A DNA stretch of 35,046 bases from a virus. Positions within the stretch are counted from its first letter, which is position 1; the number at the start of each line of letters is the position of its first letter. Of this stretch, positions 1 to 34,964 are shown in pieces. Below the pieces are notes generated by a model that had not been told where the DNA came from, did not search any database, and saw only the letters and a program-made list of their open reading frames with translations. Location of the stretch: the IMG/VR virus record IMGVR_UViG_3300009537_000083, positions 1 through 35,046 of that record, one strand, 5' to 3'. The position numbers and the translations under genes were made by a program.

Positions 1-201
1 AAGCCTGAGACTATTTATTTAACTTTTAAACGTTTTGTAGAAGAATTCCAAAAAACAGGATGGATAACCTATGATTCTTTGAGATATATTTATCGAAATA
101 GAAATACTAATGGTTTTTCAGATGCTTTTAAAAGGCCAAATAAAAGAATTTTAATTGATGTGAATAAATTTTGGGATATAGTTAGAGAAAAAGGGAATTA
201 A
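1..201 (+). CDS. 5'-truncated small DNA-binding-like protein
   Basis: An open frame runs from the first base to a TAA at 199-201, 66 codons, with no ATG or GTG in frame, so the gene is cut by the window edge. The C-terminal half (ITYDSLRYIYRNRN, then RILIDVNKFWDIVREKG) resembles the end of excisionase/MerR-type small helix-turn-helix proteins, where a wing strand is followed by an I-D-x-x-K-F-W helix; this is a pattern resemblance only. The stop lies two bases before the next ATG, so it is probably the first visible member of the short + strand operon. If the window were circular, the frame would continue 39 bases into the right end, again without ATG, GTG or TTG. Function unknown. Confidence 0.5.
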   Translation, partial: KPETIYLTFKRFVEEFQKTGWITYDSLRYIYRNRNTNGFSDAFKRPNKRILIDVNKFWDIVREKGN

Positions 202-203
202 AA

Positions 204-392
204 ATGGTTGATTGGAATATTATTTTACAAATAACTGTACCCATTTTGGGGGGGATTTTTTGGATCATTACTCGAATGGACAAAGGATTCAAAGATGTTA
301 ATGATAAAATTAATAAGATCGACTCTCGCCTTTCCCGATTGGAAGGAAAATTTGATGAAAGAGGTTATTGGGAATCTAGAGATGAAAAATAG
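204..392 (+). CDS. Small one-TM protein with coiled-coil tail, copy 1 of 4
   Basis: 62-residue protein. Residues 5-24 are hydrophobic (IILQITVPILGGIFWIIT), one membrane segment. The rest is charged and helical with heptad spacing (VNDKINKIDSRLSRLEGKF), a short coiled coil. AAAGGGA lies about 8 bases before the ATG. It is the first of four consecutive genes of the same build, each opening with M-(x)-D/E-W and separated by 1-9 bases. The plan is that of small phage membrane proteins such as holin accessories or the XhlA type, but with the membrane segment at the N-terminus, so no family is assigned. Lysis, membrane anchoring or exclusion are all possible. Confidence 0.7.
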   Translation: MVDWNIILQITVPILGGIFWIITRMDKGFKDVNDKINKIDSRLSRLEGKFDERGYWESRDEK

Positions 393-401
393 GAGAATAA
401 G

Positions 402-584
402 ATGGATTGGGTAAAAAAACATGTAGATACGGTCATCATTCTCGGGGGAATTCTCACTTCAGTTTTGTGGATGAATGGTAAGTTTAATCAACTTGAAAAA
501 GAAGTTGCAGTAGTAAAAACGGTATTAATAATGAAAGATATTTTGCCAAAAGAGCTTGTCAAAAATCATGAAGTAAAAAAATAG
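402..584 (+). CDS. Small one-TM protein, copy 2 of 4
   Basis: 60 residues, with an AGGAG Shine-Dalgarno sequence 6 bases before the ATG. It begins MDWVKKH, has a hydrophobic stretch (TVIILGGILTSVLW, about residues 10-23) and a charged helical tail rich in lysine and glutamate (FNQLEKEVAVVK). Its build matches the neighbours at 204, 594 and 790, but sequence similarity outside the MDW start and the ILGGI core is weak, so it is either an old duplicate or a functional analogue. The tight packing argues for co-translation. Function unknown; a membrane-bound small protein. Confidence 0.68.
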   Translation: MDWVKKHVDTVIILGGILTSVLWMNGKFNQLEKEVAVVKTVLIMKDILPKELVKNHEVKK

Positions 585-593
585 GACAATACC

Positions 594-788
594 ATGGAAT
601 GGGTTCAATTTATTATATTTTTTTTAGGAGTTTTTGGTCTATTTATTTGGAACCGAACAGAAGGAAGGGCAGATGCACGCCATATGGATTCAAAATTACA
701 AGCAAATAGAGATTTAATTTTAGCTATGCATGATGAAATGAAAGATTTTCATTATAGGCTTTTAGAAATAGAAAGAGGTAGAAAATAA
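594..788 (+). CDS. Small one-TM protein, copy 3 of 4
   Basis: 64 residues. It starts MEWVQ, has one membrane segment (FIIFFLGVFGLFIW, about residues 6-19), then a charged helix. Its last 18 residues (DEMKDFHYRLLEIERGRK) match the end of the next protein at 16 of 18 positions. The underlying 57 bases differ at only 5 positions, so the two are recent duplicates at the C-terminal end while their membrane segments have diverged. An AGGA motif lies 8 bases before the ATG. The positively charged residues after the segment suggest N-out/C-in topology, by inference. Function unknown. Confidence 0.7.
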   Translation: MEWVQFIIFFLGVFGLFIWNRTEGRADARHMDSKLQANRDLILAMHDEMKDFHYRLLEIERGRK

Positions 789-789
789 T

Positions 790-1008
790 ATGGACTGGCT
801 TCAAGTTTTAGCAATTATTGCTGGTAATTTAGGAATCATTATTCCTCTATTTCTATGGATTCGAGGAGAATCAAATGCAGATAGAAGAGAAACACAAAAT
901 ATTTTAAGAGAAGACCGCAAGGATTTTTTCACATTAATAACAGAAATTAAAGATGAAATGAAAGATTTTCATCATAGACTTTTGGAAATAGAAAGAAGTA
1001 GGAAATAA
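790..1008 (+). CDS. Small one-TM protein, copy 4 of 4
   Basis: 72 residues, starting one base after the previous stop. It begins MDWLQVL, with a membrane segment at about residues 5-23 (VLAIIAGNLGIIIPLFLW), then an arginine- and glutamate-rich helix ending DEMKDFHHRLLEIERSRK, near-identical to the end of the previous protein. It carries an extra 10 or so residues (REDRKDFFTLITEIK) before the shared tail, itself resembling the tail motif (DRKDFF versus EMKDFH), as if the tail unit had partly duplicated again. No clear ribosome-binding site of its own, so translation is probably coupled. Function unknown. Confidence 0.7.
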   Translation: MDWLQVLAIIAGNLGIIIPLFLWIRGESNADRRETQNILREDRKDFFTLITEIKDEMKDFHHRLLEIERSRK

Positions 1009-1035: not shown

Positions 1036-1161
1036 ATGATTTTTTGGGCTATTATAATAGGAAGCTGCATTATAGCTTCTTCAATTAATAAAAATGGTTA
1101 CTACGAAGACGATGAGGGCTATGATGGATATTATGCCCCCTACACTTATGATGATGATTGA
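1036..1161 (+). CDS. 41-aa hydrophobic/acidic microprotein
   Basis: Open frame ATG to TGA of 41 codons preceded by a strong AAAGGAGA 6 bases upstream. The N-terminus is hydrophobic (MIFWAIIIGSCIIASS) and the C-terminus is almost only tyrosine, aspartate, glycine and glutamate (YYEDDEGYDGYYAPYTYDDD). I-G-S-C resembles a lipobox, but there are no N-terminal lysines, so a lipoprotein is uncertain; a single-span membrane protein is equally possible. It is the last gene of the short + strand operon, and its 3' end overlaps the 3' end of the opposing ejection-protein gene by 16 bases. Function unknown. Confidence 0.55.
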   Translation: MIFWAIIIGSCIIASSINKNGYYEDDEGYDGYYAPYTYDDD

Positions 1162-2438
1162 GATAATTCATCGAAAATATCGGGATCTTTTTTTTCAATT
1201 TCATTTTCTATTTTTTTGATATTTTTAAGAAATCCCGATTTATTTTCATTTACAGCATCTTTTAACATATTACCATAAAACCTTCGTAAAGTAGGATTTT
1301 TGAACATTCTCGTAAGAAGCTCCCCCCCTTTGAAAGCAGCATAGCCAGGAACAGAAATTTTTAAAGAAGCGGGTTTAAATAAAGCTTCGATAATTAATAA
1401 GCTTTCTTTGTTTAATTTTCCAAAAGGAATATGTCGATTAATCCAATTACTCACTCTTTTACTTTGCTGAAACCCTCCAAATGCTTCATTGGCGGCTTTA
1501 TAATGTTTTAAAAATTTTGGGTTTTCTTTTCCATATCTTTCAATGGTTTCATCTAAAAAATGAGAAATATCATTAATTTTAGTGCGCGCGTATTTTTGTC
1601 CACTTTTCCCTTTTACCTCATCGAAAAGACCGCTTCTTAGTTCATTGATTTTTATCTTTGCAGCGACTGCATCTTCAACACGCATTTCTCCATCTCTGAT
1701 AATTTTTTTAAGATCTTTTAGTGGTTTTTCTACAAATTTTTGAGAAGGGGTTTCAACTCCTCCTTTCCTAAGCTGAGAATTAAGCTTATCTAATTGTCTA
1801 TCTAATTTATTTGCATTTAAACGAGTTCTGGGAGGAACTGATTCTTCTGCCAATTTATACTGTTGGGTCCAATATTTTTTAACATTTCCTCGTCCTGCTA
1901 ACCCAGATAAAAAAAAGGCTCCTAATTTAGCTATTGCTTGTCCTTTCTCTTGAAATCCCATTTTTTTTGCTGCTTCGGCACCAACATTACCAACGATGGA
2001 AGTTCCAATAGATCGCATAAAAGGAATTTTTCCTTTTACTGGAATAGCAAGAACGGCTGCGTCGGACACAATATCATCAATAAAAGATTCAACAGGAGAT
2101 TGAGCGGTTACTTTTTCTCCAAATAACTTTGTTGAAATTTTTTTTAATTCTTCCGAACCAGGAAAACCGGGTCTTTTTTCTTGGGTTTTTAAAGGAGGCA
2201 GCCCTATTTTTTCACGAATTTTGGAAGCCCCTTTTTCTAAACCGCGCGCTCCAATTTGTGCTGTTTGTAAAATGTCGGAAGGGAGGCCTAAGAGACTTTC
2301 CGTAATTCGAGAACCTGTACGCGCAACATGTCGGCCAATTTCTCTTAAAGGAGAAGGAGGAGGTTCATATTCTATTTGATCGAATATATCTCCCTCAGGA
2401 GCTTCTTCTAGAGAAATTTCATCAAATATATCAGGCAT
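1146..2438 (-). CDS. Candidate DNA-ejection (internal virion) protein, large
   Basis: 430 residues, last gene of the leftward virion block. The middle is alanine/glycine-rich with amphipathic stretches (about 115-190), as in podovirus ejection proteins, followed by long charged helices (about 200-330). The acidic motif D-I-F-D-E/Q occurs three times: MPDIFDEIS at the N-terminus, GDIFDQIEYE just after, and DPDIFDELS seven residues from the C-terminus. Its ATG overlaps the stop of the upstream gene by one base (TAATG). Position after nozzle and fibre-tip genes, in a run of three helical Q/A-rich proteins, matches the P22 gene 7/20/16 arrangement. The assignment rests on context and composition, not on a recognised domain. 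Confidence 0.6.
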   Translation of the reverse strand: MPDIFDEISLEEAPEGDIFDQIEYEPPPSPLREIGRHVARTGSRITESLLGLPSDILQTAQIGARGLEKGASKIREKIGLPPLKTQEKRPGFPGSEELKKISTKLFGEKVTAQSPVESFIDDIVSDAAVLAIPVKGKIPFMRSIGTSIVGNVGAEAAKKMGFQEKGQAIAKLGAFFLSGLAGRGNVKKYWTQQYKLAEESVPPRTRLNANKLDRQLDKLNSQLRKGGVETPSQKFVEKPLKDLKKIIRDGEMRVEDAVAAKIKINELRSGLFDEVKGKSGQKYARTKINDISHFLDETIERYGKENPKFLKHYKAANEAFGGFQQSKRVSNWINRHIPFGKLNKESLLIIEALFKPASLKISVPGYAAFKGGELLTRMFKNPTLRRFYGNMLKDAVNENKSGFLKNIKKIENEIEKKDPDIFDELSQSSS

Positions 2439-12827: not shown

Positions 12828-13475
12828 ATGAAAAAAACCATTTTCAGCTCATTTTTTGCCCTTAGCTCTATGCTTCTAGCACAAGAATCAGGACCAGTGC
12901 ATCACATTGCCCCAAAAATGTTTTTTAAAAAACACAAAGAAGGAAATTATAGGTATTCAACTACCGGAATTGGAGTAGAATACCATTTAAAAAAAGATGA
13001 AGGCCTCGGCGTTAAAATAGGAATTAAATCTAATGTTTCAAAAGATCAATTGCTTATAGATTCTGAATCTTCTTTGTTTTATAAATTTTGGATAAATCCC
13101 AATCATACTCTTTATCCTATTTTAAGCTCAGAATATATATCCCATGTACAAGATTCGAATGAAGAGAGCTCCTTAACTATAAATAAAGCAATATACTTTG
13201 GCGGTCTTGGGTGGGAATTCTCTTTTTCAAAGGGAATTGTTTTATCTATTGAATCTCTTATTTTTTCCGATTATCATAATTCTCTAATTTGTCAATCAAA
13301 AGAGATTTTTACAGGGATTTTATACTCAAACCCTTCTGGTTTTAAAGAAAAAATAGGGATTCACGCAACCTTTAATGATTCCATTTTTTTGGGAGCAGAA
13401 AGCTTTTTTTGTAAGACGTTTGACAAATGTTATAAAAATCATGGATGTGAAATTTCACTTAAGTGGGGATTTTAA
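12828..13475 (+). CDS. Secreted beta-barrel-like outer-membrane protein (moron candidate)
   Basis: 215 residues. A signal peptide is clear (MKKTIFSSFFALSSMLLAQE, cleavage near residue 18-20). The mature part alternates polar and hydrophobic residues in strand-length blocks (GIGVEYHLKKDEGLGVKIGI, AIYFGGLGWEFSFSKGIVLS) and ends in phenylalanine (EISLKWGF), as bacterial outer-membrane barrels do. A strong AAAGGAG precedes the ATG. It is on the + strand inside the leftward virion block with its own promoter region, the placement of a moron. It may alter the cell surface of the host, for example to exclude other phages; this is an inference. A structural role in the virion seems unlikely given the signal peptide. 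Confidence 0.65.
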   Translation: MKKTIFSSFFALSSMLLAQESGPVHHIAPKMFFKKHKEGNYRYSTTGIGVEYHLKKDEGLGVKIGIKSNVSKDQLLIDSESSLFYKFWINPNHTLYPILSSEYISHVQDSNEESSLTINKAIYFGGLGWEFSFSKGIVLSIESLIFSDYHNSLICQSKEIFTGILYSNPSGFKEKIGIHATFNDSIFLGAESFFCKTFDKCYKNHGCEISLKWGF

Positions 13476-13726: not shown

Positions 13727-14202
13727 AAATTACAGGCTTCTTTCACCCAAGTAACAAGCTCCGAATTATACAACTCGGGGCTTTTTAATATTGACCTGCA
13801 TTCTTCACAACCTGGAACAGTCCATAAAAGAGTTATTTCACCCTTTTTTGGATCTACTTCAAACAATGTTTTTGTATGATTTGGATATTCTTTTAACATA
13901 GGCTGCATTAATGGATTTGTTTTTCTAGAAATTTTCCAATGCCTAACTACATTTGCTATCCCAAACTGTCCTAAATCTTTATGAAGAAGAGAGAAAATAT
14001 AAAAGGCCCCATTATACTTTTTTTTCTCAGCTCCTGCAAAGTTTTGAATATCTTTTAAATAGTCTTCTCCAAACTTTTCTAATATTTCTTCAACACGATA
14101 TACGGGTTGATCTTTTTTTAAAATATCAATAACAGCTTGACCAACTCGCTGGCCTTTTGATGAAAAATTGTTATAAGAATATTTATCGGGTTCTACCACC
14201 AT
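13723..14202 (-). CDS. Uncharacterised phage protein
   Basis: 159 residues, mixed helical protein with no domain I recognise. Features: a helical N-terminal half (GQAVIDILKKDQPVYRVEEI, then LEKFGEDYLKDIQNFAG) and a C-terminal part with strands (KTLFEVDPKKGEITLLWTVP) followed by a CxxC pair (GCEECRSI, about residues 131-134) that could bind metal or form a disulfide. It overlaps the upstream lipoprotein gene by 10 bases and belongs to the row of small genes between portal and scaffold. It may be a minor head protein; no direct evidence. Confidence 0.5.
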   Translation of the reverse strand: MVVEPDKYSYNNFSSKGQRVGQAVIDILKKDQPVYRVEEILEKFGEDYLKDIQNFAGAEKKKYNGAFYIFSLLHKDLGQFGIANVVRHWKISRKTNPLMQPMLKEYPNHTKTLFEVDPKKGEITLLWTVPGCEECRSILKSPELYNSELVTWVKEACNF

Positions 14203-14396
14203 TTAAAAATGCTCTTATCTTCCTCTTTATTTTCTTCTTTTATAGGAAATCTAACAATGTTAGGGTTTTTTTTAGAACCTTTTTCTTCTTCACATTTTTT
14301 TTCTTTAAAAAACTTCACATCAAAACGATCTTCTAAATATTTTGCTCCACACCCTAGGAGTATTAAAAAAGGTATTGCTAATATTATTTTTTTCAT
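14193..14396 (-). CDS. Small lipoprotein
   Basis: 67 residues. The N-terminus MKKIILAIPFLILLGCGAKY is a type II signal peptide with lipobox L-L-G-C, acylated cysteine at residue 16. The mature part is short and highly charged (KEKKCEEEKGSKKNP, then KEENKEEDKS). AAGGGG lies upstream of the ATG. Small lipoproteins of this size in phages include outer-membrane spanin subunits (Rz1 type), but those are proline-rich and nested in an inner-membrane spanin gene, and neither is seen here. It could serve lysis or surface exclusion. Location among head genes is unusual for either. Confidence 0.6.
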   Translation of the reverse strand: MKKIILAIPFLILLGCGAKYLEDRFDVKFFKEKKCEEEKGSKKNPNIVRFPIKEENKEEDKSIFKWW

Positions 14397-22945: not shown

Positions 22946-23221
22946 ATGGAATTTTTCATAGTTTTTTTAACTTTTGGTGTTTTTATAGGACTAATATCGA
23001 TTTTCTTGATTTGGTCACTTTTGTCCGGGCTTTTTTATAAGAAAAAGATCAATGCAAAATTGGACAAAATTTTTTTGGAGTTAAGAGAATATCAGACAAG
23101 GATCACAATTTTGGAGACACGCGTTAGTGAACGCTCTTTGTTTTTTCACCCTTCCGAAAAGACCAAAGAGCTCCAAGCTAAAAGAAAACGAGGTAGACCA
23201 AGAAAAAATTCTGAAGGTTAA
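22946..23221 (+). CDS. Membrane protein with coiled coil and C-terminal AT-hook
   Basis: 91 residues. A long hydrophobic N-terminus (FFIVFLTFGVFIGLISIFLI, then WSLLSGLF; residues 3-30) gives one or two membrane passes. KKKINAKLDKIFLELREYQT and RITILETRV (about 32-60) form a coiled coil. The C-terminus KRKRGRPRKNSEG contains a canonical AT-hook (R-G-R-P within basic residues), a minor-groove DNA-binding motif. The sequence therefore suggests a protein that could tether AT-rich phage DNA to the membrane. It lies between the replication and recombination genes, opposite to both. The role is inferred from the motifs; no family is recognised. Confidence 0.65.
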   Translation: MEFFIVFLTFGVFIGLISIFLIWSLLSGLFYKKKINAKLDKIFLELREYQTRITILETRVSERSLFFHPSEKTKELQAKRKRGRPRKNSEG

Positions 23222-26172: not shown

Positions 26173-26408
26173 AAACAATTGGAGATGTAATTTCATACAC
26201 GGATAAAGTGGGAGGAATTTACCATGATGGTAATCTTGAGGCAATTCCTTATAACCATTGGAGAAAAGATTGTGAATGGCTTGTTCTAGTAATTAAAGAT
26301 TCTAAAGCCGTTAGATTTATCCCTATCACTGCTATTACATCTAAAGATGCAGCAATGACAGCTATTTATAAATTTGTAACGGAGGACAAAAATGAGACAT
26401 CTGCTTGA
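26169..26408 (+). CDS. Uncharacterised early protein, 79 aa
   Basis: 79 residues: MKTIGDVISYTDKVGGIYHD, then NLEAIPYNHWRKDCEWLVLV, IKDSKAVRFIPITAITSKDA and a helical end AAMTAIYKFVTEDKN. A strand-rich small domain followed by a helix. Its start overlaps the previous gene as ATGA, and its end overlaps the next gene by 17 bases. No domain recognised. Part of the rightward operon that begins with the Cro-like gene. Confidence 0.55.
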   Translation: MKTIGDVISYTDKVGGIYHDGNLEAIPYNHWRKDCEWLVLVIKDSKAVRFIPITAITSKDAAMTAIYKFVTEDKNETSA

Positions 26409-26652
26409 AGACTATGGAGTAAGTGCTGGGATCGGCCTTGTTATGATTTTATTAATTATAAACTTAAGAATGACTCATGGAAAAGTAATTGATATTCATT
26501 TACCTTCCCCCTGTGAAAAAAATATGATGGAAAAAGTAGAAAGGGACCGAGAAAATGAAAAAGCAGAAAGAACTTTAAATGACCCTTCTTCAACTCAGCA
26601 AGAAAGAGAAGAGGCCTGTAGAACACTTATTGATAATGAAGGAATGTCGTGA
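26392..26652 (+). CDS. Single-TM protein with charged helical tail
   Basis: 86 residues with GGAGG before the ATG. The N-terminus MRHLLEDYGVSAGIGLVMIL, LIINL contains one membrane segment (about 11-25). The rest is hydrophilic (MMEKVERDRENEKAERTLND, PSSTQQEREEACRTLID). The shape, a signal-anchor plus a charged helical domain, is that of inner-membrane spanin subunits, but no outer-membrane partner is nested here and the helical part is short. It closes the rightward operon; its stop touches the stop of the opposing fibre gene with no gap and no terminator. Function unknown. Confidence 0.55.
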   Translation: MRHLLEDYGVSAGIGLVMILLIINLRMTHGKVIDIHLPSPCEKNMMEKVERDRENEKAERTLNDPSSTQQEREEACRTLIDNEGMS

Positions 26653-27393
26653 TTATCCTAATAAATAACCCTGAAAGATAGTACTTCCAGCTCCTCCTTC
26701 CACATCAACTGTTTTTGGTCCACCTGCCGACTCTACTTCTACTATGACTGTTTCGCCTGCTGCCAGGGAAAAAATATGTGGGGTTGAAGAAGTTAGTTCA
26801 TTAGTGACTGTATTAAAAACACTTCGGGGATCAACATTAAATAACTGTCTAATTCCTGCTACCGAAGCGTGTAAACGGAGGGTCCATGTTGTGTGAGCCG
26901 CCCCAAAATCACGTCCGCGAAGATTTAAATTAAACCAATAAATTCCTGCTACAGGGGCTGTAAATGTTCCAGTAGCCGCATTAAAATCAGAATTGATATC
27001 GAAATATTCGGTAAATCCTGAGAGAGGATAAATTGTTCCGTCACCCGTCACATTTGTATCCGTAGCTGTAAGAAAAGCTGAAAAAGCTGGTTGAAGTGGT
27101 TTTAATATTTCACCAGTTGTAAAAGCTACTATTGAGTCATTTGTTCCAAGAGCAGTTCCTTGTGAAAGCTTCCATTTGTCTGAATCATTATTATCAATGC
27201 CCATTTCCCAATCGGTGGCACCGCTTACATTAAAGTTTAATGTTGGATCAGCTGCAGATACTCCTCCAACTGTGATAATAGTTCTGGCTGCGGAAGACGC
27301 AGTATTTGAAGGATTTGTAATAGTAAATGAATTGGTACTTCCTGAATTACTGGCACCGGATATATTGTTTAACGCATTATTATTTCCTGGCAT
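26653..27393 (-). CDS. Fibre protein with C1q/TNF-like tip
   Basis: 246 residues. The N-terminal part is S/T/N-rich (NNISGASNSGSTNSFTITNP) and includes DWEMGIDNNDSDKWKLSQGT, a fibre strand. The C-terminal 140 residues have the C1q-like jelly-roll pattern: QPAFSAFLTATDTNVTGDGT, FDINSDFNAATGTFTAPVAG, IYWFNLNLRGRD, and the closing TIFQGYLLG. In C1q proteins the G-x-F-x-A-P-x-x-G-x-Y-x-F motif is diagnostic and it is present here. C1q domains in phage fibres form trimeric binding tips. Last gene of the leftward fibre cluster. It could bind a host surface protein or sugar. Confidence 0.75.
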   Translation of the reverse strand: MPGNNNALNNISGASNSGSTNSFTITNPSNTASSAARTIITVGGVSAADPTLNFNVSGATDWEMGIDNNDSDKWKLSQGTALGTNDSIVAFTTGEILKPLQPAFSAFLTATDTNVTGDGTIYPLSGFTEYFDINSDFNAATGTFTAPVAGIYWFNLNLRGRDFGAAHTTWTLRLHASVAGIRQLFNVDPRSVFNTVTNELTSSTPHIFSLAAGETVIVEVESAGGPKTVDVEGGAGSTIFQGYLLG

Positions 27394-32333: not shown

Positions 32334-34964
32334 CTAAGCTTGAAATCCAACTTTTAGACTAGTAATATTCACTTGTGTTGCACTGGCAGAATGCAAACAG
32401 TGGATATACGGAACGACAACGTCTCCTGCATCAAAAGTAAACGCTGCAGAAGCTGATGGCGCAGACCCGTTAATCGTATAAGTAACAGCACCAGCTCCAT
32501 CTACAAGGACCCTGAGAGTATTGGTTGATCCATCCCCTCCCCATGCATCTGTAGTATCAGTTACTGTTTGTCCTCCGGAATTAAGCTCTGTCATCGTTAC
32601 AATATTAGTCACAGAAGAAGCTGCATTCATTCCAATTGCTGCATAATCAGTATAACTTGCCATTGTCGCGTTGTTTGCTTCAGCTTTTCTAAATCCTATT
32701 ACATAAGGATCCGCTCCATCCATATCGTTAATATAAAGCCCTACTTCAAAGAAGAAGGCTGCTGATGTACCCACAGTAAAAGCATGTCTAGAATTTGTTC
32801 TGGCAGCTCCAAAATTATATTCAGCTCCTTCTGCAGCAGTTAAATCAAGAGAAACAAGCAGCCCATTAGTATCCATTCTTGGTCCAATTATTGTCTGGGT
32901 ACCGATAATGAATTGTTCCATTAAGACGCCTTGTTGAAGATACATTAAGTTTACATCTCCATTTGCTCCCGTGGCTGCTCCAGCTGTGTTAGCTGCTGTA
33001 GTTAAAATAGGACTTTGAGAAAATGATGTAATTTCATCGCCGGAAGCTTCTAAAAACTCGGCATCAATTTCTTTTACGGTTCCAGTAACTGTGATTTCTC
33101 CTGTCCCTGCTTGGAGTGTAAGAGAAGCTGCTCCAGTTGTACTACCCATGGTTACCACGTTGGCAACAGCGCCGGTAGCAATATTTACAGTTTTAATGCC
33201 TGTTCCACCTGTTGCTAAGTTAGTTGTTTGAGCCCCTGTTCCTGTTCCAATATTGATCGTTCCAGTGTTCGCACCAGTTCCTGAAATGGTGTAGGTTGAA
33301 GCTACATTTCCCTCTAAAGTAAAATTTCCCGTTCCAACTAAAAGATCTAAACTAGCAGCGGCAGTAACAGTACCAATCGTAATGACATTTCCTATTGCAC
33401 CCGTTCCAAGATTAATAGTTTTAATCCCCGTTCCACCAGTTCCAATATCTAATGTTTGGGCTCCTGTTCCTCCACCAATTGTAATTGTTCCTGTCTGAGC
33501 GCCTGAGCCACCAATATCGATGGTTCCAGTAGTCATTGCGTCTCCAATTGCAACAGAGCCACCGGTTTGAGTGTTACCTATTGCAATTGTATTTGCTCCA
33601 GTCCCTCCAATATTTATGGCATTAGCCATTGCAGCACCGGTTCCAATATTAACAGTTCCGGCTTGACCTGTTTGAGTAAGAAGATTAAGAGCTTGAGTAC
33701 CTCCTGTAGGCACTCCTCCTAAAATTGTTACTGTTTGAGTACCAGCAGAAGGATTATCACTCATTAATGCAAATGTATCATTTTGAGCAGAATCTCCTCC
33801 GCAAACTGTAACTGTTCTTGCAGCTGCTGGAGCAATATCTGCAATCCCTATAGTAGTCACACGAGTATTATTTCCTATTGCTAAAACGCCTGCGCCAGCT
33901 GTCCCAACTCCGGACATAATATTTACAGTAGTGTCAGCTGCAGAAGCACCATTAGCGACATTAATTGTTTGAGCTGAAGTATTTACTCCGTTTCCAATAG
34001 AAATTGTATTTCCGTCTACACCTGCTCCCATATTAATTGTTTTAGCACCATCTGCATTAGCAATATCTACTTGTTGAGCACCAGTAGAAGGAGAAATCGT
34101 CATAGTGCCGGTATTACCCGTAGCTCCAATAGTAATGGTTCCTGAGGTTAGCCCCGTGCCGATTGTCATAACAGTAGTTGCTGCACCAGTTACTGAAAAA
34201 TTTCCTGTTCCAGCTAAAAGATCAAGTTGAGCAGCACCAGTAACCGAACCTATAGTAATTACATGAGCGGCTGCTGAGCTTCCAAGATCAATAGTACGCG
34301 CTGTGGTTCCATTTCCTATCCCAACAGCATTAGCAGAATTGTCTTCAGAAATGCTCACTACACCAGCTGTTTGGGTAAAGGCCCCTGTTACTGTAAGTCC
34401 AGTTAGAGTTCCGATCCCTCCATTTGAATCAATGGAAAAAACTTCAGCATCATCCGAATCTGTAAAAGAAACTTTATTAGCCGCAGCATTATCACCCATT
34501 TTCATGATTATGTCTTGACCTGATGCGGCATTTATATTCATATCTGTAGCTGCAGCTACTGTATAAATAGGAGAACTTACTGAAGTGGCTAAAGTAATAG
34601 CAGCATCCAAATTAAACGTGATTGTTCCTGGTCCAGCTGTTCCTACTGTTGTAATGTTTGTTCCTCCAGTAATCGCAATGGTGCCGCCTGTTGGTGAAAT
34701 GGCTCCTCCTGAATCACCAGTTAGAGTATCTACATCTGAAGATCCAGGACTCATAAGATTCCACGTTGCACTTCCTCCAGAAACAGCCCCTAATCCATAG
34801 ATAATTCCTGTTGATGTATCAACCCAAAGTTGACCAAATGCATACCCTGTATCTGCAGTAGTAGGAGCTCGAGTAGATTCTATAGGAGCTTGAGCATAAT
34901 TGGTAAATTGGGAAGAAGGACTTCCAGATAATACTTGAGGTTGGGTTTTTAATTTTCGGGCCAT
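32334..34964 (-). CDS. Long repeat-rich tail fibre protein
   Basis: 876 residues, first gene of the fibre cluster. The N-terminus has a particle-anchor-like part (SQFTNYAQAPIESTRAPTTA, then WVDTSTGIIYGLG) and the shared module DTLTGDSGGAISPTGGTIAI. From about residue 130 to 640 it is built of short G/T/I repeats (for example GAQTLDIGTGGTGIKTINLG), with three larger copies of a unit ending ITIGTVTGAASLDL...GTGNF-like. The C-terminal 230 residues (MEQFIIGTQTIIGPRMDTNG) are a globular beta domain ending VNITSLKVGFQA. It would form a trimeric fibre shaft with a binding head. AAGGAA lies 6 bases before the ATG. Confidence 0.78.
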   Translation of the reverse strand: MARKLKTQPQVLSGSPSSQFTNYAQAPIESTRAPTTADTGYAFGQLWVDTSTGIIYGLGAVSGGSATWNLMSPGSSDVDTLTGDSGGAISPTGGTIAITGGTNITTVGTAGPGTITFNLDAAITLATSVSSPIYTVAAATDMNINAASGQDIIMKMGDNAAANKVSFTDSDDAEVFSIDSNGGIGTLTGLTVTGAFTQTAGVVSISEDNSANAVGIGNGTTARTIDLGSSAAAHVITIGSVTGAAQLDLLAGTGNFSVTGAATTVMTIGTGLTSGTITIGATGNTGTMTISPSTGAQQVDIANADGAKTINMGAGVDGNTISIGNGVNTSAQTINVANGASAADTTVNIMSGVGTAGAGVLAIGNNTRVTTIGIADIAPAAARTVTVCGGDSAQNDTFALMSDNPSAGTQTVTILGGVPTGGTQALNLLTQTGQAGTVNIGTGAAMANAINIGGTGANTIAIGNTQTGGSVAIGDAMTTGTIDIGGSGAQTGTITIGGGTGAQTLDIGTGGTGIKTINLGTGAIGNVITIGTVTAAASLDLLVGTGNFTLEGNVASTYTISGTGANTGTINIGTGTGAQTTNLATGGTGIKTVNIATGAVANVVTMGSTTGAASLTLQAGTGEITVTGTVKEIDAEFLEASGDEITSFSQSPILTTAANTAGAATGANGDVNLMYLQQGVLMEQFIIGTQTIIGPRMDTNGLLVSLDLTAAEGAEYNFGAARTNSRHAFTVGTSAAFFFEVGLYINDMDGADPYVIGFRKAEANNATMASYTDYAAIGMNAASSVTNIVTMTELNSGGQTVTDTTDAWGGDGSTNTLRVLVDGAGAVTYTINGSAPSASAAFTFDAGDVVVPYIHCLHSASATQVNITSLKVGFQA

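Follow-up and report, generated by a model that had tools for sequence, protein, structure and literature searches.

The window analysed in this study is the whole 35,046-base stretch of a virus record in which portal, terminase, head and tail-fibre genes are recognised. The closest deposited phage is far off, with a best portal identity of about 25%. Four consecutive small genes lie on the plus strand at 204-1008, as the initial annotation had stated, with 62, 60, 64 and 72 codons. All of them start with ATG and keep the common opening described for them (MVDW, MDW, MEW and MDW in copies 1 to 4). Copy 1 (204-392, 62 aa, family P1) consists of an N-terminal transmembrane (TM) segment, positive residues just after it, and a coiled coil ending in RLSRLEGKFDERGYWE. 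Copy 2 (402-584, 60 aa, family P2) runs from KKHxDT... through the TM segment, WMNGKF and a coiled coil to IMPxEL. Copy 3 (594-788, 64 aa) and copy 4 (790-1008, 72 aa) both belong to family P4, the former being of sub-type MEWxQF...FGLFIWNRTE and the latter of sub-type ...IIPLFLWIRGESNADRR...EMKDFHHRLLEIER. The row continues on the same strand with a fifth small membrane ORF (1036-1161, 41 aa) carrying an acidic, Tyr-rich tail. Relatives of this ORF are absent among the loci compared; a small TM ORF (MLNVIFWALII...) occupies a similar place in L006 and L014.

Upstream of the array lies the 3′ part of a small plus-strand gene (1..201), with 66 codons in the window and a start beyond the window edge. 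It possibly encodes a winged-helix or DNA-binding protein, the Pfam winged-helix match being weak (E 0.04, below cut-off). A relative in L016 (3848-4102; 33% identity over 39 aa, E 0.001) is found directly upstream of a P4 gene there. Assignment of this ORF to the HTH family c19, which occupies the same place in other phages, was rejected, as the c19 profile gave no match. On the other side, the array converges with the minus-strand gene c28 (1146..2438), the distal end of the virion-gene run, whose cluster is present in 6 loci and adjoins the array in several. At the opposite window end, a minus-strand gene (32334..34964) encodes an 876-aa protein that clusters with the c0 genes, the tail-fibre cluster, of which the member at 29570-31168 matches tail-fibre PHROGs. 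In relatives, a c0-type gene borders the array on its upstream side. No tRNA and no Rfam match was obtained, and promoter and terminator scans of positions 1-2500 gave signals no higher than those of shuffles.

The single-helix plan is supported by AlphaFold2, in whose predictions copy 4 forms an unbroken helix over residues 3-71 (mean pLDDT 94.9) and copy 2 over residues 2-44 (mean pLDDT 86.3). By the positive-inside rule, 147 of 155 P4 proteins are C-in. The rule is less clear for P2, with 33 proteins C-in, 15 tied and 5 N-in. We infer an N-out/C-in topology for P4 and P1, with less certainty for P2.

Although this plan is common to all four genes, they fall into three families and are not four equal paralogs; copies 3 and 4 form the only clearly homologous pair (E 9e-13). 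The last 57 bases of these two copies were reported to be recent duplicates, and the 5 differing and 52 identical positions were confirmed. The duplication, however, does not extend to the whole gene. An orthologue of copy 3 in L014 (8448-8642) matches it at 77% of the residues over 64 aa, the synonymous sites of this pair being saturated, and the ungapped identity of copies 3 and 4 is only 51% over 195 bases; hence only the tail was recently exchanged or homogenised. In the two tails, codons agree at 10 of 12 shared residues, a level that is reached by 1.2% of between-genome pairs. Sharing of tip codons is 0.59 between tandem neighbours, versus 0.47 between copies from different genomes and 0.83 in the window pair; tails are therefore exchanged or homogenised within arrays.

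That the cytoplasmic tail is conserved, as had been noticed for the window pair, turned out to be general across the P4 family. Its tip is nearly fixed as EMKDFHxRLCxIEER (EMKDFHGRLCAIEER) and its membrane helix is variable. In an alignment of 35 P4 sequences, all nearly invariant columns (E56, D59, F60, H61, R63 and L64) fall in the tip. In a larger P4 set, the TM columns have an entropy of about 3 bits and the tip residues E, K, I and E have 0.3-0.7 bits; low entropy at DFH and two further tip positions arises partly by construction because these were used for selection, and the E, K, I and E positions were not. Within one genome, anchors can differ while their tips match (L141, L130, L116), and tip types can also be mixed (L014, L160, L184). 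P4 is a modular family, since its tail types recur on different anchors.

The distance between membrane and tip is also restricted. In 91 of 91 P4 sequences, the stretch from the TM end to the tip has only 25, 29, 32, 36, 39, 40, 43, 47, 54 or 58 residues, lengths that can be built from helical repeats of 7 and 11 residues. The phase order of these lengths is 0.87 at a period of 3.67, which was reached by none of 20,000 random length sets of equal number. Similarly, the P2 stalk spacings are 18, 25 or 32, in steps of seven, in 39 of 41 sequences. Most simply, these lengths point to an uninterrupted helix in which the tip has to keep one orientation with respect to the membrane segment. Heptad-coding repeats may have slipped and so added to the length steps, but slippage alone would not yield the 29/36/43 series.

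P4 and P2 are large gene families found in more than 100 uncultured phage loci. P4 relatives in viral contigs were found by both single-sequence and alignment queries, and the KDFHxRLC sub-type alone accounts for 277 confirmed stretches. P2 was found at 45 viral loci, and H7, D9 and N25 are invariant across 38 aligned sequences. The array thus stands above chance, as P4 and P2 recur in dozens of other phages. The copy 1 query returned 600 pattern stretches with no confirmed relative, and P1 relatives were reached only via the neighbours of other copies; for instance, a P1-type gene with the tail RLSKLEGAFEERGRWE occurs in the L014 array. By tblastn, no P4 or P2 relative was detected in the 50,697 phage records of INPHARED, where one query gave a single weak and unrelated match, and a plasmid search with the P4 and P2 queries gave nothing. 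Pfam and PHROGs held no convincing match to the array families. The matches to phrog_1009 and phrog_1863 are weak (E 0.008 for the array protein P0003; 3e-6 for the best member), and assignment to phrog_1009 was dropped as unspecific because it also matches 12 of 14 unrelated control genomes. PDB profile matches of P2 to GCN4 fusions, HA2 and trimeric adhesins were set aside as generic coiled-coil similarity, and Foldseek with single helices gave nothing useful. In the literature and databases searched, the family, its shared tip, the turn-quantised stalks and the arrays are without earlier description.

Comparison of close pairs gave a pooled dN/dS of 0.09 for P2, and pN 0.19 versus pS 0.84 for P4, with synonymous sites saturated. 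These values point to strong purifying selection on the array genes, in place of the dN/dS near 1 that the initial annotation had named as contrary evidence.

The tandem arrangement recurs in relatives. Across 126 viral loci, a few of them from the same record, 160 groups were counted, with some neighbours recognised by plan and not by homology included. Of these groups, 108 consist of one gene, 36 of two and 16 of three to eight, so that 52 of the 160 have two or more genes. One locus holds up to ten copies. In the largest array (L116, 5717-7405), eight genes follow one another on one strand, mostly at intervals of 1 nt, between c28 and a tail-fibre gene. In L014 this gap is filled by P4, P1, P4 and P4 together with one more TM ORF, and in L059 by P4 and P2; it would also house the array of the window if the record were circular. 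Among 43 P2 loci, 13 lie fully in the gap between tail-fibre and virion genes, 8 touch one side of it, 10 are beside early genes and 12 are elsewhere. Place and copy number therefore vary, yet not randomly. Single copies at random places had been regarded as evidence against the array; many relatives are indeed single-copy and their place varies, but one gap is the commonest niche.

The orientation of the genes differs according to the neighbour. Of 146 nearest recognisable virion or packaging genes, 131 are encoded on the other strand from the array gene and 15 on its own strand; for the nearest DNA-metabolism genes, the split among 52 is 37 same-strand to 15 opposite. The nearest HTH gene is on the same strand in 22 of 22. 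Some P2 and P4 genes adjoin RecT, ERF, YqaJ-type or exonuclease genes that point the same way, at a distance of a few bases; L136 has three P4 genes between RecT and YqaJ, separated by gaps of 0-1 nt. In five loci (L022, L029, L042, L045 and L046), P2 genes or arrays are 0-10 nt from an SPFH/prohibitin-like gene, named from its sequence, and the islands of L029, L042 and L046 also contain an RtcB-like gene.

The likely hosts of these phages are Chlamydiota, as judged from metagenome bins and from relatives on Chlamydiota chromosomes with up to 71% identity. A first scan of genome contigs revealed no relatives. A second scan, with the KDFHxRLC type and no phylum chosen, found 8 genome loci, at least three of which (L064, L067 and L068) are in Chlamydiota. 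Among 234 Chlamydiota genomes, 8 contain a P4 match, in some cases on a phage contig, and 2 contain a P2 match. P2 was found in 0 of 299 genomes of one other phylum, and a third phylum yielded the seed and one weak match in 296 genomes. Several of the matches are entire phage contigs within bins (L064, L068 and L092). In genome G080, genes close to the copies include those for SucC-like and SSF symporter proteins as well as DnaA and biotin carboxylase, and a tandem of four is also present; the copy on C94 shares 71% identity with a phage protein. The Chlamydiota phages that have been studied are small ssDNA microviruses, and tailed phages of Chlamydiota were not found in the literature searched. 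On one Chlamydiota contig without recognisable phage neighbours (L087, 2242-3478, minus strand), four tandem genes encode TM and coiled-coil proteins, with a tail ...LEGAFSSKDCCMIKDSSQLKKVE that resembles the tail of a phage P1 protein in L062 (...MEGAFYSKECCMLKDESQIKKAE).

We tentatively propose, at somewhat less than even confidence, that the array proteins are early inner-membrane tethers that present a common docking tip. Each protein would be one helix whose N-terminal part crosses the inner membrane, while the remainder extends into the cytoplasm as a coiled-coil stalk with the conserved tip at its end. Differing anchors, possibly with different membrane partners, would thus carry the same tip. 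The tip would dock one common cytosolic factor and draw it to the membrane, during takeover of the host or during replication and recombination of phage DNA. The conserved tip, the helical-phase stalks, the C-in topology, the gene orientation and the purifying selection support such a tether. A tether is favoured over a pore because the P4 tip is conserved and the TM segment variable, and the reverse is expected of a pore-former. The proteins are presumed to oligomerise as well.

Several observations count against the tether. RecT, an exonuclease and a replication gene are on the strand opposite the array in the window. The 12 P2 loci found elsewhere are near neither early nor structural genes by the gene labels used. 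A few copies lie inside virion operons (L116, 897-1410), and the length steps could partly reflect repeat slippage instead of phase selection. In its favour was counted a further TM and coiled-coil protein of the same genome, separate from the array (22946-23221, plus strand, 91 aa), which has the AT-hook-like C-terminal end KRKRGRPRK (Pfam AT_hook E 0.0046, 17.1 bits versus a cut-off of 17.4) and is a possible membrane DNA anchor. This protein is without relatives in the loci compared, and therefore says little about the array. The phi29 proteins p16.7 and p1 (PMC4974454), which sit in the membrane and are proposed to hold the replication machinery there, provide an analogy in working only, with no claim of homology. 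p16.7 interacts with the terminal protein and displaced ssDNA, whereas no DNA-binding domain is recognised in the four array proteins.

A more specific form of the tether, which we regard as rather doubtful, is a modular adaptor. In infected chlamydia-like bacteria, varied anchors with the same tip on whole-turn stalks would recruit one cytosolic effector to many membrane targets, and anchors and tips would recombine within the array. The fixed tip and the turn-by-turn stalk lengths lead to clear and cheap predictions.

The main rival is that the microproteins are holin-like lysis proteins: with their one TM segment they would collect in the inner membrane and make it permeable, several paralogs tuning the timing. 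We consider it unlikely, though a serious contender, since the plan has been proven or proposed elsewhere as that of a holin and a low-peptidoglycan host might need no more. Where the peptidoglycan sacculus is not complete, as in a chlamydia-like host, cells could even be lysed without an endolysin. The window has no recognised endolysin, and in 40 mostly near-full-length records (34-43 kb), a scan covering Phage_lysozyme, Amidase_2 and SLT found none of these domains, so that some other lysis agent is needed. No further lysis gene was identified, and the phages in question may not use a classical endolysin.

The plan of the single protein, one TM segment followed by a charged cytoplasmic tail, is already known, and the statement in the initial annotation that no described system has this design does not hold: one-TM, N-out/C-in holins or holin-like proteins with charged tails have been described (PMC13056207; PMC9527704; PMC9671378). 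LysF1b of F1 mycobacteriophages, a putative holin, shares with the array a single N-terminal TM segment, N-out/C-in topology and a charged cytoplasmic C-terminal part; in complementation, a stand-in protein with this architecture depended on its TM segment as well as on its charged tail (PMC13056207). The LysF1b gene stands beside lysin genes in a lysis cassette, whereas the array is multi-copy, has a fixed tip, lies opposite the late strand without a recognised endolysin, and has no homologues in the phage tblastn search. BhlA/UviB/TpeE (PF10960; PMC9527704) are likewise proteins of about 70 aa with one N-terminal TM segment and a C-terminal cytoplasmic helix, but they belong to a different bacterial group, and the array conserves the tip rather than the TM segment. 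The Holin_BhlA profile (PF10960) gave no match at E <= 1 in eight records, namely the window and seven related ones, nor in the single proteins; the controls that matched include B. subtilis. Lysis cassettes of Gordonia phages contain consecutive small holin-like TM genes, some encoding one-TM proteins with a small outside N-terminus and a charged cytoplasmic tail (PMC9671378). These cassettes include lysA, no coiled coil is predicted for the one-TM tails, and no shared tip motif was found described.

Other features agree less with lysis. Besides the conservation of the tip over the TM segment, the genes and the late operon point in opposite directions, which weakens this reading, and in several phages the array genes stand among recombination genes. 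Up to ten copies in one locus are many for a holin, and relatives are found on bacterial chromosomes near housekeeping genes.

Alternatively, the microproteins could act in superinfection exclusion or anti-phage immunity by blocking DNA entry of competing phages, with an arms race driving copy number and swaps of membrane segments. The variable copy number, the shuffled anchors and tail types and the arrays of up to eight genes agree with this, as do the favoured site beside tail-fibre genes, the islands with HTH, SPFH-like, RtcB-like and HNH-like genes (named by eye) and the copies on host chromosomes. The outward-facing part, however, is short and not conserved, selection within each sub-type is purifying and not diversifying, and nothing links the microproteins to entry. 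We therefore regard exclusion as improbable. Another possibility is a borrowed host membrane family, spread mainly by gene duplication, with no single phage function and with copies that modulate different host membrane proteins. The Chlamydiota chromosomal relatives with up to 71% identity, including the tandem of four on L087, and the highly variable copy number would suit such an origin. The near identity of the tip across anchors argues instead for one shared partner, and few Chlamydiota genomes have a match (8 of 234, in part on phage contigs). We judge this origin to be improbable too, slightly more so than exclusion. Rz-like i-spanins, coiled-coil rods of N-in/C-out topology whose partner is a lipoprotein of the outer membrane, are very unlikely: lambda Rz (PMC6139136) also has an N-terminal TM segment followed by a coiled coil, single weak PHROG spanin matches were obtained (E 0.007-0.03, one member each) and a 67-aa lipoprotein-like ORF with an LLGC box, seen by eye, is present in the window (14193-14396, minus strand), but Rz has a periplasmic domain in the opposite topology to that predicted by the charge rule for the 147 of 155 P4 proteins and requires an o-spanin partner, the array of the window contains no lipobox partner gene, the candidate ORF is unlinked to it, and multi-copy arrays with a fixed tip fit poorly.

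The family is absent from the deposited phage records searched and probably belongs to tailed phages of Chlamydiota. As these phages appear to be without the commonest endolysin domains, the microproteins are candidates for a role in host exit or in early takeover. Further proteins of the window may be mentioned. A 215-aa protein (12828-13475, plus strand) with a signal peptide and a beta-barrel-like pattern by eye has no Pfam or PHROG match, and is possibly a phage-encoded outer-membrane protein. An 86-aa one-TM protein with a charged tail (26392-26652, plus strand), which belongs to no Pfam family, is another small membrane protein candidate. A fibre-type protein (26653-27393, minus strand) ends in a C1q-like domain (Pfam C1q E 7e-8).
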